Of a stretch of 20,798 nt of DNA, positions 7,324 to 17,318 are shown piece by piece. The position numbers were made by a program, and so were the translations under genes. The stretch is from IMG/VR virus record IMGVR_UViG_3300018868_000055, positions 1 to 20,798 of that record. The stretch is one strand, 5' to 3'. A model generated the notes under the pieces. That model had not been told where the DNA came from and searched no databases. It saw nothing but the letters and a program-made list of their open reading frames with translations. Source of the stretch: a virus. The first letter of the stretch is position 1. Each line of letters opens with the position of its first letter.

Positions 7324-7589
7324 TGGTAAAGAAAACAAGCGCGATTCTTCCAAAAACAATTCCAGTCGAGCCAGCAGATGAAACCACGGAAGAAGTGAAA
7401 AGCCAGGCGGAGTTTGAGCCTATTGATCGTCTGGACCGCGTCCGAGCTCTGAAAGAAGCACCTGCTGATGCCGTGACAGCGCAAATGCTGGGTGGTATCG
7501 AGTACTTCAAGGATGCCGATGGCCGGACTATGCGCGTTTGCGTCGCTGATGGCGAGCTGTGCAAGCAGGAAATCAACCAAACCAACTAA
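7320..7589 (+). CDS. Small unknown phage protein after portal
   Basis: This 89-residue protein starts at ATG 7320 in an ATGA overlap with the portal stop, with a strong AAGGAG at 7310-7315; ATG 7323 would serve equally. The N-terminal 40 residues are polar and Thr/Pro/Glu-rich and look disordered. The C-terminal part (MLGGIEYFKDADGRTMRVCVADGE read in pieces) looks like a short beta hairpin domain. I do not recognise a family. The tight coupling between portal and scaffold suggests a minor head protein or assembly factor. Confidence 0.7.
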   Translation: MMVKKTSAILPKTIPVEPADETTEEVKSQAEFEPIDRLDRVRALKEAPADAVTAQMLGGIEYFKDADGRTMRVCVADGELCKQEINQTN

Positions 7590-7594
7590 ACAAC

Positions 7595-7606
7595 TCGCAG
7601 GAGCGA
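7595..7606 (+). promoter_or_regulatory. Hairpin presenting the scaffold Shine-Dalgarno in an AGGA loop
   Basis: TCGC (7595-7598) and GCGA (7603-7606) pair perfectly around the tetraloop AGGA (7599-7602). The AGGAG ribosome site of the scaffold gene (ATG 7614) is therefore displayed on the loop. CsrA/RsmA proteins bind GGA in hairpin loops that overlap Shine-Dalgarno sites, and a CsrA-like gene lies one gene downstream. The pairing is visible; binding is inferred. Confidence 0.45.
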
Positions 7607-7613
7607 AATTACT

Positions 7614-8549
7614 ATGTCGCACGGATATACAGAAGACGAATTGAAATTCCTCACAGCAGAGGAAATTGCTGCACTCGACGACGACGCTGGCGATGACGTT
7701 GATGTCGCCAAAGGCAATGCTGATGGTGATGACGACAAAAACGACACCAATGATGATGCAGACAAGGGCGCAGCCACGGCTGAAAAGAAGCCTGAAGATG
7801 AACCCAAGCCAGATGCCAAGGTAGAAGATACCGCAAAGCCTGAAGCTGATGACAAGCAAGAGTCAATTCCTGCTGACCGCACAAAGCCGCTCTACAAGTC
7901 TGATGCTGAAATAGCAGATTCAAAAGCCAAGCGCGAAGAACTCACAGGCGAAAAAGCCACCGCCCTGGCAAAATTGATTGAAGGTGAAATCACTGCCGCT
8001 GAATATTCGGCCATTGATACCAGGGTACAAGGCGAAATTAGCAAGCTGGATCGCGCTGAAACGAAGGCGGAAACAAAAGCTGAAGTCGCTGCCGAAATGA
8101 CGCAACAGCAGTTGCACCGTGAGTGGGATCGTGAAGTCATTGCCTTGACCAAACAAGCGAAAGTGGAAGGTATTGACTATTCTGACGAGAAACTTGGTAA
8201 GGAATTTGACACCTTGGTGCGAGTTTTTGGGCAGGAGGCGATAGCCAATGGCATGCCGGACGATAACCTGGTCGCGTCCAAGTGGGCTTTGGCTCAAGCG
8301 CATAGCACCATGAAAATGCGTCATGGTATTGCCGCTCAGGCACAGCCTGCAGCAGCGCCGGCAGAGCCGCAAAGCAAGAACGAGCCACGTCACAACGTCA
8401 AAACACTGGGCGCGCTGCCAGTGGCTGACTCGCAGAAGGTCGATAACGATCCGATCGCACGTTTTGCCACGCTGGAAGGCGAAGACCTGGAACGCGCAAT
8501 CGCCAAGATGTCGCCTGACGAAATCGAACGCATGCTGGCAGGAACATAA
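7614..8549 (+). CDS. Capsid scaffolding protein
   Basis: This 311-residue protein lies between portal and major capsid, the normal place for a scaffold. It opens with YTEDELKFLTAEEIAALDDD and then a very acidic Asp/Lys/Glu/Pro stretch (to about residue 85). Long charged helices with coiled-coil character follow (about 95-220), then an Ala/Pro linker. It ends in a short helix (ATLEGEDLERAIAKMSPDEI) that may contact coat protein. This composition and order fit scaffolds of P22-like and related phages, which guide coat assembly and then leave the prohead. The ribosome site is AGGAG at 7599-7603, held in a hairpin loop. The CsrA-like gene starts 2 bases after the stop, so both should be translated from the same message. 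Confidence 0.85.
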   Translation: MSHGYTEDELKFLTAEEIAALDDDAGDDVDVAKGNADGDDDKNDTNDDADKGAATAEKKPEDEPKPDAKVEDTAKPEADDKQESIPADRTKPLYKSDAEIADSKAKREELTGEKATALAKLIEGEITAAEYSAIDTRVQGEISKLDRAETKAETKAEVAAEMTQQQLHREWDREVIALTKQAKVEGIDYSDEKLGKEFDTLVRVFGQEAIANGMPDDNLVASKWALAQAHSTMKMRHGIAAQAQPAAAPAEPQSKNEPRHNVKTLGALPVADSQKVDNDPIARFATLEGEDLERAIAKMSPDEIERMLAGT

Positions 8550-8551
8550 GT

Positions 8552-8734
8552 ATGACCCAGCAGCACGGCATGTCCGTGGACGTTAAAGTCGGCCAAGCCA
8601 TTGATATCGACAACGGCAGAATACGCATCGTTGTCGAGCATAAAGAAGGAAAGCGAGCCCGGTTACGTATTGTTGCTGACAAGAGCATAATCGTGACTAG
8701 GCCGCAAGAGATTGCGACTAACAAAATCGCATAA
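8552..8734 (+). CDS. CsrA/RsmA-like small protein
   Basis: The 60-residue product (start ATG 8552 with AGGA about 9 bases upstream; ATG 8570 is possible) has the length and pattern of CsrA. Residues 13-54 read VGQAIDIDNGRIRIVV..., GKRARLRIVADKSIIV and TRPQEI. Compare CsrA: VGE.i.Igd.i.v.V...g..vriGv.APk.v.VhReEi. Arg50 falls where CsrA has its RNA-binding Arg44, and the five-strand plus short-helix layout fits. The N-terminal RNA-binding pair of CsrA (Leu4, Arg6) is not kept (SVDVK here), and there are two extra residues in the middle. It is therefore a divergent member, or a lookalike. CsrA proteins are dimers that bind GGA in hairpin loops and control translation. Its place between scaffold and capsid, next to two AGGA hairpins, suggests local control of those genes. 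The gene is certain; the family is probable. Confidence 0.6.
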   Translation: MTQQHGMSVDVKVGQAIDIDNGRIRIVVEHKEGKRARLRIVADKSIIVTRPQEIATNKIA

Positions 8735-8735
8735 G

Positions 8736-8804
8736 TAACCAGGGGTAGCCTGGGTTAAATGATTGACACGCAGGAGTGTGTCGTAATTTTCCATGAAAGG
8801 AAAA
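8736..8804 (+). promoter_or_regulatory. Structured leader of the capsid gene: three tandem hairpins
   Basis: Three stem-loops fill the gap before the capsid ATG. H1 (8736-8757) pairs TAACCAGG with CCTGGGTTA, with one bulged G. H2 (8765-8782) pairs GACACGC with GTGTGTC, 7 bp with one G-U, around the tetraloop AGGA (8772-8775). H3 (8787-8804) pairs TTTTCC with GGAAAA around ATGAAA, and buries part of the Shine-Dalgarno AAAGGA (8796-8801). A TTGACA at 8763-8768 could also be a -35 box, but only TAATTT at a short 15-base spacing follows. The pairings are directly visible; a role in translation control by the adjacent CsrA-like protein is inferred. Confidence 0.5.
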
Positions 8805-8806
8805 CT

Positions 8807-9937
8807 ATGTCACGCACTTCTATTCTGCCTTCCGATCCGGCGGCAGTGAAAGTATGGTCTGCAAAGATCGCAGTTGAAGCTCAGAAGAAATCCTTCTGGA
8901 CAAAAATGACAGGTGGCGAAGATGCTGCCATGCCTGTTGTCATCAAGTCAGACCTCGAATCTGGTCCTGGTGATGAAGTCACTACCACTCTGATCGCCAA
9001 GTTGCGCGGCAAGCCTATCGAGGGCGACGAAAAAGGCGAAGGTCGTGAGCAAAGACTGTCTCACTATACGCATAAAATGCGTATCGATAAGAGCCGGCAG
9101 TTGGTCAACGTCGGCGATGTTATGTCACAAAAACGTGTTCGCCAGGATATCGCCAAGCAAGCGCGTGCCCGTCTGTCGGACTACATGGCTGAAGTTCAAG
9201 ATGAACTGATTCATATGTATGCCTGCGGTGCGCGCGGCGTGGGTGACGAAATTCAGCATTATCCAAATAACTGGACAGGTTTCCCCAATCCTTTGACAGT
9301 GCCAGATGCAGCCCATCTGCAAGTCGGTGATGGTCTGACAAAAGCCACTTTGGTAGATGGTGGCGCAACTTCCAAAATGAGCACAGCGGTGATTGACCGT
9401 GCCCTTGTTCGTGCCTCGAAAATGTTTTCCCTCGAAGGCAAGAAAGGCGCTCGCATGGAGCCGGTCAGCGTGGAAACGCCAAACAGCGGTTCCGATAAGT
9501 GCTTTGTGCTCTTGACCTCTCCAGAATCAATGTATGACTTGCGTCGTGAAGTTGGTGACGCAGGCTGGTTGACGCTGGAAAAAGCAAAGGCGGCTGCAGT
9601 TGGTGCGAAGTCCCCCATCTTCCAGGGTGGTGATGCCTACTATAACGGCGCATTGGTGACGAAGCATGAAACCTGCGTGAAATTCAACGATTACGGTGCC
9701 GGTGGCAATGTCAACGCCGTTCGAAATTTGTTCCTGGGTGCCCATGCAGTGGCCGTTGCACATGGCATGAAGGGGCAAAAAGGTAATGTTCGCTATGAGC
9801 TGTCTGAATCATCTGTGGATCATGGCGAAGAAAGCGTGATCGTTGTTCGCATGATCGCTGGCTTTGACAAGACCCGCTACAACAACATGGATTTCGGTGT
9901 GCAGTCCATCGACACCGCTTACACAACCATCGACTAA
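8807..9937 (+). CDS. Major capsid protein, N4-gp56 family
   Basis: I start it at ATG 8807, with AAAGGA 5 bases upstream, rather than at ATG 8759, whose extra 16 residues (MIDTQECVVIF...) run through the hairpin leader. The product has 376 residues. It begins SRTSILPSDPAAVKVWSAKI and has FWTKMTGGEDAAMPV (30-44), followed by IAKLRGKPIEGD, MRIDKSRQLVNVGDVMSQKR and a later EESVIVVRMIAGFDKTRYN. This is the pattern of the N4-gp56-type HK97-fold capsid proteins. It will be the most abundant virion protein. The leader and the following intergenic region carry perfect hairpins that could control or stabilise its message. Confidence 0.9.
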   Translation: MSRTSILPSDPAAVKVWSAKIAVEAQKKSFWTKMTGGEDAAMPVVIKSDLESGPGDEVTTTLIAKLRGKPIEGDEKGEGREQRLSHYTHKMRIDKSRQLVNVGDVMSQKRVRQDIAKQARARLSDYMAEVQDELIHMYACGARGVGDEIQHYPNNWTGFPNPLTVPDAAHLQVGDGLTKATLVDGGATSKMSTAVIDRALVRASKMFSLEGKKGARMEPVSVETPNSGSDKCFVLLTSPESMYDLRREVGDAGWLTLEKAKAAAVGAKSPIFQGGDAYYNGALVTKHETCVKFNDYGAGGNVNAVRNLFLGAHAVAVAHGMKGQKGNVRYELSESSVDHGEESVIVVRMIAGFDKTRYNNMDFGVQSIDTAYTTID

Positions 9938-16653: not shown

Positions 16654-16902
16654 ATGAGCGATACAAGAAAACTAATCCTCGACAATATCGGGCATCTGCT
16701 GACGCTGATCAGTTTAATCGTGTCAGGCGTGGCTATGTGGCAGGCCATGGATAAACGGGTCCTGGTACTGGAAGAAGCGAGGGCGGCACAACGAGTCATC
16801 GATACTCGCCAGGACAATGAAATTGTCGAAAATAAGAAGACCGTTCGGGAAGATCTGAAGGAAATCAACAACAAGCTGGATCGTTTAATTGAGAGGAAAT
16901 AA
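16654..16902 (+). CDS. Small one-TM coiled-coil protein, holin/antiholin candidate
   Basis: This 82-residue protein has one TM segment at about residues 12-31 (NIGHLLTLISLIVSGVAMWQ). It is followed by a charged coiled coil (DKRVLVLEEARAAQRVIDTR ... REDLKEINNKLDRLIERK). There is no signal peptidase site, so it probably stays anchored in the inner membrane. Small proteins of this shape beside endolysins are often holins or their partners, but some are i-spanin-like. Its stop overlaps the endolysin ATG by 1 base (TAATG), which ties it to lysis. The start is ATG 16654 with AAGGA upstream. Confidence 0.75.
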   Translation: MSDTRKLILDNIGHLLTLISLIVSGVAMWQAMDKRVLVLEEARAAQRVIDTRQDNEIVENKKTVREDLKEINNKLDRLIERK

Positions 16903-17318
16903 TGAAAAACAGTCGTGACTTAGCGGACTTGCTGCCGGTCGTGGCAGCCAAGGCATCTGCATTTGTCGGTGCGTGCAAGAAGGCAGGAATCGACGTGCTG
17001 ATCACTTCCACCCTGCGTGACAACGAAGCACAAGCCGCTTTGTATGCTCAGGGACGAACAGCACCAGGCAAGATCGTGACAAAAGCAAAGGCTGGCCAGT
17101 CCTGGCACAACTATGGGTGCGCTTTTGACTTTGTGCCTATCGTCAATGGCAAGGCGCAATGGGATGACACCCGCACGTTTGAACGTTGCGGTGTGATTGC
17201 CGAAAGTGTCGGGTTGGAGTGGGCAGGACGCTGGAAGAGTTTTAAAGAACTGGCACATTGCCAGTACACCGGTGGTTTAACCCTGGCTGATTTGCAGGCA
17301 GGTAAAAAGATTCAATAG
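16902..17318 (+). CDS. Endolysin, M15 (VanY-type) peptidase
   Basis: This 138-residue enzyme has the M15 zinc site: TSTLRDNEAQAALYAQGRT (36-54), QSWHNYGCAFDFVP with His69 and Asp76 (SxHxxGxAxD), and KELAHCQYTGG with Glu116 and His119. These residues bind zinc and catalyse cleavage, usually of the L-Ala-D-Glu or D-Ala bond in peptidoglycan peptides. It has no signal peptide, so it should need a holin to leave the cytoplasm. Holin-like genes lie on both sides. Its length is normal for single-domain phage endolysins of this class. It is the main host-lysis enzyme candidate. Confidence 0.93.
   Translation: MKNSRDLADLLPVVAAKASAFVGACKKAGIDVLITSTLRDNEAQAALYAQGRTAPGKIVTKAKAGQSWHNYGCAFDFVPIVNGKAQWDDTRTFERCGVIAESVGLEWAGRWKSFKELAHCQYTGGLTLADLQAGKKIQ

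Follow-up and report, generated by a model that had tools for sequence, protein, structure and literature searches.

The coat-protein operators of RNA phages are hairpins that are read by a phage protein and control phage translation, with autogenous repression of replicase as the outcome. Activation through a hairpin is reported as well. RsmA activates phz2 (PMC3933668) and CsrA activates ymdA/moaA (PMC7652899), in the available text of both papers by preventing or melting a blocking structure. In phage Mu, Com is described as activating mom via a hairpin adjoining a translation-inhibiting stem at the start codon, with the GA of the loop being crucial (PMC6483171). For csrA genes carried by phages, the survey of csrA+ phages, in the part available, calls for loss-of-function tests (PMC7366521). 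Of the phages with a PHROG 8397 gene (Lessievirus, F116, Pavtok and others), several appear in that survey (PMC7366521). Knockdown of csrA in phage PTXU04 is reported to give small plaques, with no target named in the accessible text (PMC11879866). In the accessible portions of the earlier accounts of csrA-carrying phages there is neither a target nor a leader element, and the role is given as 'unknown' or the gene as a moron (PMC9144972, PMC7366521, PMC10269572, PMC11879866).

The DNA considered here is the 20.8-kb viral record IMGVR_UViG_3300018868_000055, all 20,798 nucleotides (nt) of which are referred to as the window. Sequence and profile searches show that it carries a Bcep22/Lessievirus-like podovirus head module with a P22-type portal gene, a scaffold-like gene, a gene for a CsrA-like protein and the major capsid gene (Table 1). 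The reading that we consider probable is that the CsrA-like protein targets chiefly the phage's own late mRNAs, repressing scaffold and switching on capsid via a two-state operator. The protein would bind the operator hairpin at its loop and hold the hairpin shut, and the clamped hairpin would prevent a blocking pairing and leave the capsid ribosome site exposed, which amounts to activation. Where the loop is itself the Shine-Dalgarno sequence, as for scaffold in the window's clade and for p49 in F116-like phages, the bound protein would instead cover the ribosome site and repress. With accumulating protein, the phage of the window would translate less scaffold and more capsid; elsewhere among csrA+ phages the protein may time endolysin, DarB-like and virion genes. 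We infer binding, the sign of control and its timing from the anatomy, conservation, covariation, two-state folding and co-occurrence described below.

The capsid operator is conserved across a wide sample. The 189 loci came from viral, genome and phage collections, 184 of them with a capsid match, and yielded 115 distinct 100-nt leaders, those with less than 100 nt upstream being excluded; two broad scans took the best 80 of 448 and the best 80 of 466 relatives, so that nearer kin are favoured. The operator core is mostly GCGC or ACGC, a loop of ANGA or ANGAN and then G[TC]G (typically GCGC-ANGA-GTGC), with the loop 30–58 nt (median 46) 5' of the capsid start codon. It is present in 113 of the 115 leaders at a score threshold of 16, and 111 exceed the 99th percentile of shuffled leaders; since the profile was built from the same leaders, this count is descriptive and the covariation is the test. 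Among 41 distinct four-base-loop operators (35 of the 66 cluster representatives and six added, a set without duplicates, operators of the GCTGC type and those with five-base loops), the covariation score is 0.424, compared with 0.161 ± 0.021 for shuffled sets, none of 500 being as high. Standard pairs fill 82% of pair cells as against 66% with shuffled partners, and structures slid by 1–3 columns score at most 0.126. The innermost three pairs are near-invariant and the outer five vary, with changes on both sides. The operator swap test on the hairpin over the 66 clusters gave p=2e-4, the permutation floor. Across these clusters the loop has GGA in 46 and GA at positions 3–4 in 62, variants among relatives including AGGA, ATGA, AAGA and AACA. 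Two tandem operators (loops AGTA, AGAA) stand 5' of capsid in L143, L151, L157, L158, L163, L171 and relatives; one operator per leader entered the tests. GGA-loop hairpins as such are no commoner in the window than expected (62 against 61.5 for stems of at least 4), and their mere presence was dropped as evidence; the capsid hairpin rises above chance because it is conserved with covariation. Rfam returned no match at E<=1 for the leader element from six sources including the window.

The same data bear on the idea that the operator acts as a DNA site or at the level of transcription, as a terminator, an antiterminator or part of a promoter. A sigma70-like match (TTGxxx-N17/18-xAxAAT) lies upstream of the capsid operator in 34 of the 66 clusters, for example L017, L020 and L026, a count without a shuffled control, and where it does the capsid mRNA may begin near the operator. 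However, both the hairpin and the long-range pairing show compensatory changes; these and the placement relative to start codons fit RNA and translation, and 11 of the 12 clusters of the window's clade have no such promoter (L014 has the only match), which makes a transcriptional element very improbable.

Folding of the leaders points to a switch with two states. The predicted minimum-energy fold of window positions 8735–8850 lies at -41.1 kcal/mol (z=-3.55), a value reached by none of 200 shuffles. In it AGGAGTGTGT is joined to ACGCACTTCT and CGTA to TATG; the fold buries the capsid start codon, encloses the Shine-Dalgarno hairpin and excludes the operator hairpin. The operator loop and 3' arm are complementary, in most of the 66 clusters, to a stretch between the Shine-Dalgarno and the ATG or just 5' of it (BcepIL02 GGATGTGC/GCACATCC; L133 GGAAGTGCTCT/GGAGCACTTCC; L083 GGAGCTGCCT/GGGTAGCTCC), whereas in the window's clade the operator complements the first capsid codons instead. 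The pairing score falls from 15.9 to 12.2 when operators and start regions are exchanged between clusters (p=5e-5, the lowest value that 20,000 permutations can give), and the native pairing is within the best tenth of swaps in 25 clusters, the test having covered only the 22 nt 5' of the ATG. When the hairpin is forced, the unpaired fraction of the ribosome site goes from 0.324 to 0.495 on average over the 66 clusters, and exposure goes up in 60 of them. Clamping costs 6.8 kcal/mol, compared with 2.0 in shuffles (p=2e-12), and the exposure gain is 0.171 compared with 0.029 (p=1e-10), p-values that are optimistic because the clusters are related. The native leader beats at least 19 of 20 shuffles for cost in 48 clusters and for gain in 39; the control consisted of dinucleotide shuffles of the downstream part, which also disturb codons, and this matters most for the window's clade. 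By these models the operator hairpin and the start-blocking fold are mutually exclusive, with the blocked state as a rule the more stable by several kcal/mol.

Bridging of a hairpin to the Shine-Dalgarno is a known mode of CsrA action and would give the opposite sign: a dimer would join the operator hairpin to the Shine-Dalgarno GGA in classical repression, and capsid would be delayed until the protein is titrated out. In 43 of the 66 cluster leaders, the window's among them (AAAGGAAAA), a GGA stands between positions -20 and -4 relative to the capsid ATG, which would permit this. We nevertheless regard it as unlikely, since the other 23 leaders have no such GGA, a conserved start-blocking pairing would be pointless if the bound state were blocked too, and clamping predominantly increases exposure.

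The initial annotation had described a 60-residue protein of CsrA pattern between scaffold and capsid, and this description is upheld. The protein matches PHROG 8397 ('CsrA-like regulator') with E=1.3e-9 over residues 7–58 of 60. The outcome for the CsrA family as a whole is divided: a profile from 18 phage relatives matches the solved RsmE 2jpp (E=2.2e-8) and seven other CsrA-family sequences (E<=0.01), but the score against Pfam CsrA (PF02599) is 20.3 bits (E=5.4e-4), below the curated cut-off of 27 bits, and for this reason the protein is named CsrA-like and not a Pfam CsrA member. The window protein alone has no match at E<=1 among the same solved CsrA-family sequences. The structure prediction agrees with the original description. 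The AlphaFold2 monomer model (72 relatives in the alignment) has a predicted local distance difference test score of 86.8 and a predicted template modelling (TM) score of 0.63, and the top 15 Foldseek chains from the PDB are all CsrA, RsmA or RsmE, with TM up to 0.72 and, in 14, root-mean-square deviations of 0.9–1.8 Å. VIA-align gives Z of 5.2–7.0 for six CsrA-family entries (7.0 for 1vpz_B), 4.8 and 3.0 for two more and at most 2.6 for unrelated rows, with the caution that Z below 8 may reflect a common arrangement. From these models the protein is CsrA-like, with the predicted β fold of a CsrA subunit.

Leu4 and Arg44 (E. coli numbering) are RNA-contact residues of CsrA. The window protein has Val at position 4 and Arg at 44, and the Arg44 equivalent is found in 73 of 103 relatives. 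The raw table of loop and residue reads 58 GGA with Arg, 14 GGA with non-Arg, 15 non-GGA with Arg and 16 non-GGA with non-Arg. Co-evolution of Arg44 and loop was dropped, the independent pairs on the capsid tree (96 rows) being non-significant; L058 (AAGA loop, Lys) beside its relatives L071 and L068 (GGA, Arg) is a lead only. The F116-like phages PA8 (MZ285879) and BR228a (MK511043) have, besides a match of the PHROG-8397 kind, a second, more canonical CsrA elsewhere (59% to E. coli CsrA).

Gene and operator tend to occur together. A csrA-like gene lies within 3.2 kb upstream of capsid in 103 of the 115 leaders. In twelve of the 18 phage records first taken by capsid or csrA match (DC1, JC1, CSP3, BcepIL02, BcepMigl, Pavtok, PEp14, Itty13, Skulduggery, Parlo, ZX1 and LASTA) the interval from the scaffold-like gene to the capsid gene holds an annotated csrA-like gene, with one or two extra small genes after the scaffold-like gene in DC1, CSP3, BcepIL02 and BcepMigl, and Mwe-JY07 has an unannotated equivalent at the same place. 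Weak matches are found in POI1126 (E=1.7e-4), PBC5 (4.3e-4) and Atu_ph08 (6.1e-6). PBC5 and Atu_ph08 keep the operator with the capsid gene far from the weak match, which in PBC5 directly follows the gene next to portal. In F116 and 8P the csrA-like gene is elsewhere (downstream of the capsid gene in F116-like phages) and the capsid leaders have no operator; in F116-like phages the operator precedes both genes that follow the csrA-like gene. F116 has AGCGCGC-AGGA-GTGCGCT before p48, in the terminal part of the csrA gene, and CGCGC-AGGA-GTGCG at p49, and 8P, USP_25 and Epa33 have operators with loop or stem variants at the same p48/p49 places. Six outgroup phages with homologous capsids (~24–27% identity) have no operator at the capsid gene and no csrA-like gene in records of 38–60 kb (one genome partial), in a search that had no positive control of its own, the same profile finding the F116 and 8P genes. 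The 47-kb record of the operator-less leader L144 likewise showed no csrA, nor did two further records with that leader type (L147, L150), and no csrA was found within the 5.7 kb examined around the operator-less leader L146.

The reader of the operator can be narrowed down from the hosts. The genome of Undibacterium umbellatum holds a close phage relative with an identical capsid protein, and no CsrA match was found in it at E<=0.001, while the control genomes of E. coli, B. subtilis and T. maritima do match; the phage CsrA-like protein itself is too weak to score at that search size. The available text of the csrA+ phage survey also lists B. cepacia, B. cenocepacia and S. meliloti as being without chromosomal csrA (PMC7366521). 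A host reader of GGA hairpins is therefore unlikely there, and the natural reader would be the phage protein, whose binding is predicted.

These observations also bear on the suggestion that the csrA-like gene serves host takeover or is a 'moron' (its product perhaps being injected with the virion), and that the leader element beside it is independent of the protein or read by the host. The JC1 gene has been termed a moron and one peptide of its product was detected in virions, according to the available part of PMC9144972, and plaque size is reported to be influenced by a csrA homologue in PTXU04, an unrelated phage that carries it away from the head genes (PMC11879866). Such a division of roles appears quite improbable, even more so than bridging repression, considering that operator and gene are jointly absent in the outgroups, that operators stand behind the gene at its other location in F116-like phages, that the Undibacterium genome gave no CsrA match and that the survey text describes the three other species as lacking chromosomal csrA. 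PTXU04 was ruled out as an instance of the same system, its gene lying beside holin and endolysin, its capsid protein being different and no operator match being found.

The scaffold hairpin has a narrower distribution than the capsid operator. It was seen in the window's clade only, at 10 of 17 loci (L001/L003 and L007/L010 being near copies), with a CGC-AGGA-GYG core and the Shine-Dalgarno as loop; it is missing in L006, L007, L010, L013, L122, L219 and L222, and other clades have almost no such hairpin. Its stems are compensated (TCGC/GCGA, CCGC/GTGG, AGCGC/GTGCT, CTCGC/GTGAG), and covariation is 0.330 against 0.181 (14 of 500 shuffles as high) over eight rows selected for the core. The fold of window positions 7585–7640 includes the 4-bp hairpin (z=-1.62, 15 of 200 shuffles as good). 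On the + strand of the window CGCAGGAG is found only at the scaffold and capsid hairpins, and these two sites are also all that a rule-based search for such leaders returned from the window and from 59.0 of the 59.9 kb of a relative, so that the predicted circuit in this phage comprises two genes with opposite geometry.

All elements named in the initial annotation are present where it placed them, including its two hairpins with AGGA in a closed tetraloop, but in the minimum-energy fold the capsid AGGA is paired with capsid codons. Recurrence of the gene and both hairpins in relatives with compensated stems holds for the capsid hairpin but not in general for the scaffold hairpin. The local switch between scaffold and capsid that had been proposed is plausible in the window's clade, in altered form, as two exclusive RNA states with predicted capsid activation and scaffold repression. 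Its further suggestions, a dimer bridging both sites and an effect on host Csr control, gained no support; for the latter, the Undibacterium genome gave no CsrA match. The element is not confined to this phage but recurs in relatives and marks a wider late regulon there. In line with the annotation, which named no described phage system of this layout, no described equivalent was recognised in the open-licence PMC literature, subscription papers lying outside that search. The original observation is thus confirmed and is larger than first described, and its interpretation is partly supported.

The wider regulon was seen with the pattern GCGCANGA(N)GTGC, which has 36 sites in 13 complete csrA+ phage records as compared with six for the reversed control; the count leaves out five Lessievirus records, ZX1, PEp14 and E220, and eight of the 36 are the capsid operators that supplied the pattern. 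In the six csrA-less outgroups and PTXU04 together it has one site, away from the capsid gene. Thirty-three of the 36 sites precede a gene start, annotated or predicted, on the sense strand; for the three at 8P 46903, JY07 36947 and PBC5 961 no such position could be assigned. At PBC5 961 the ATG of the operator loop coincides with the annotated integrase start, which may not be the true one. In addition to capsid genes (eight sites), the candidate targets include the endolysins of POI1126 (GH108 type), PBC5 and Atu_ph08 (both annotated), the Pavtok N-acetylmuramidase (PF11860, E=1.9e-52) with genes of Itty13 and LASTA alike by eye, and a Skulduggery gene for which the best PHROG has no assigned function and the second is the endolysin phrog_90 (E=1.2e-51). 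DarB-like genes of POI1126 and PBC5 and an Atu_ph08 homologue (by eye), the virion genes gp21 and gp26 of POI1126 and the gp26-like gene of Atu_ph08 are further candidates, as are p48, p49 and a gene of 192–196 amino acids (phrog_8123 in F116) in four F116-like phages. For unannotated targets the start was taken as the first start codon with a Shine-Dalgarno. The frame is open through the operator at the third sites of F116 and Epa33, in Pavtok, Itty13 and LASTA, and at POI1126 gp26 and PBC5 DarB and endolysin, and the annotated gp26 start overlaps the operator, so an earlier start is possible at these sites.

Nineteen of the 25 non-capsid sites were folded, a set without the three from Epa33 and the three at p49 whose loop holds the Shine-Dalgarno; the 8P and USP_25 p48 leaders are identical and some of the 19 are near copies. 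On the whole these leaders share the predicted two-state behaviour of the capsid leaders. Clamping costs 8.8 kcal/mol against 2.0 in the control (p=1.9e-6), and the exposure gain is 0.212 against 0.044 (p=2.7e-5). An ATGA loop can pair via CAT with the start codon itself, as predicted for POI1126 DarB (CATGACGTG/CACGTCATG). It is in our judgement an even chance that translational control of late genes is the dedicated function of the PHROG-8397 proteins in a large phage group, the proteins reading a shared two-state operator, opening most targets and closing those with a Shine-Dalgarno loop, with head assembly and lysis ordered by translation rather than transcription. In PBC5 (L027) and Atu_ph08 (L028) the capsid and endolysin genes are divergent, each with an operator on its own strand, the two within ~100 nt of each other. 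The endolysin-like gene of the window (16902–17318, phrog_2649, E=4.2e-33) has a leader without operator and differs there from the endolysins of rhizobial and some gamma-proteobacterial phages, which have it. No further targets were found in the Lessievirus-like clades or the window's clade among the 27 inspected of 50 remaining sites of a looser pattern.

Several results weigh against activation by the phage protein or against its extension to other genes. To the Shine-Dalgarno GGA of the 43 leaders, the JC1 virion peptide, which leaves another role open (PMC9144972, in the part available), and the Pfam score must be added the weak Foldseek E-values, the best being 0.033 and none <=0.001. 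The loop is not GGA in 31 of the 103 rows having gene and operator, and the independent pairs for GGA loop and Arg44 number 2.6 one way and 0.9 the other, where fewer than six pairs cannot reach 0.05. For ten of the 113 leaders with an operator, the 3.2 kb upstream gave no csrA-like match. PBC5 and Atu_ph08 are among these ten and have their weak match elsewhere; the other eight are L064, L067, L093, L108, L126, L130, L170 and L187, four of which have less than 400 nt upstream, and the records (fragments) of all but L130 were searched and gave no csrA-like match. Exposure is not raised by clamping in six of the 66 clusters (down in two, unchanged in four). Outside capsid, F116 ORF196 and Skulduggery ORF168 fail for both cost and gain and USP_25 ORF193 for gain, and the gains of the POI1126 and Itty13 endolysins do not stand out, being matched or exceeded by 7 and 8 of 50 shuffles. 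The looser pattern CGCAGGA(N)GYG has 66 sites in 20 genomes of the window's and Lessievirus-like clades, compared with 31 for its control; 16 of the 66 are capsid or scaffold operators, and of the 27 others inspected, 21 divide into 18 inside coding sequence, one possible leader and two that are neither, and six are inside long frames. Separately, a csrA-like frame can be seen by eye in L170.

The features of the window are collected in Table 1. The role of the scaffold-like gene is suggested by its position between portal and capsid, and the csrA-like ATG starts 3 nt past the end of the scaffold stop codon. By eye and unscored, the stem letters of the hairpin between the csrA-like gene and the operator vary in clade relatives yet pairing is kept, and the Undibacterium prophage relative has changes in both arms of the Shine-Dalgarno hairpin (TATCC/GGATA), likewise by eye.

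Table 1. Coordinates of the head-module features in the window
Feature	Position	Strand	Remarks
Scaffold operator hairpin TCGC-AGGA-GCGA	7595..7606	+	Loop is the Shine-Dalgarno, directly 5' of the scaffold ATG at 7614
Scaffold-like head gene, 311 amino acids	7614..8549	+	phrog_8246, E=2.1e-33, family of unknown function
CsrA-like, putative RNA-binding protein gene, 60 amino acids	8552..8734	+	phrog_8397, AlphaFold2 model, Foldseek, VIA-align
Leader hairpin CCAGG-GGTAG-CCTGG	8739..8753	+	Between the csrA-like gene and the capsid operator
Capsid-leader operator hairpin TGACACGC-AGGA-GTGTGTCG	8764..8783	+	8 bp including the outermost T-G; predicted protein-bound, capsid-ON state
Operator loop and 3' arm (AGGAGTGTGT + CGTA)	8772..8785	+	Pairs with 8812–8821 and 8806–8809 in the predicted capsid-OFF fold
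Shine-Dalgarno hairpin TTTTCC-ATGAAA-GGAAAA	8787..8804	+	Sits inside the alternative fold
Capsid start codon and next codons	8806..8821	+	Pair with the operator in the predicted OFF state
Major capsid protein gene, 376 amino acids	8807..9937	+	Phage_capsid_3 PF13252, E=5.1e-53; phrog_334, E=3.4e-85; putative controlled gene

The analysis names likely targets of csrA within the phage genome together with a compact operator, and it suggests that the balance of capsid and scaffold and the timing of lysis can be set by a protein-controlled RNA switch. If this is true, DNA phages would have a multi-gene translational regulon and would offer natural protein/RNA pairs whose specificity may differ, since the loops vary between relatives. 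The gene itself is known, phage genes of PHROG 8397 being annotated at the same place in DC1, JC1, BcepIL02, PEp14 and others. By analogy, phz2, ymdA and mom may serve as close precedents for the activation step. The RsmA–phz2 and CsrA–ymdA/moaA cases are alike in that a CsrA-family protein acts at or upstream of the Shine-Dalgarno against a blocking structure; they differ in that these are host genes under a global regulator of the host, whereas the reader here is probably phage-encoded and the operator stands at several late genes in many phages. Mu Com and mom share with the proposed system a small phage RNA-binding protein, a hairpin operator and a phage gene that is activated, as is proposed here, but Com is a zinc-finger protein acting on one gene, while the present protein has a predicted CsrA fold and several candidate genes. 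The coat-protein operators of the RNA phages are read by a protein of another fold and serve the repression of replicase, whereas the operator described here would serve the timing of late genes.

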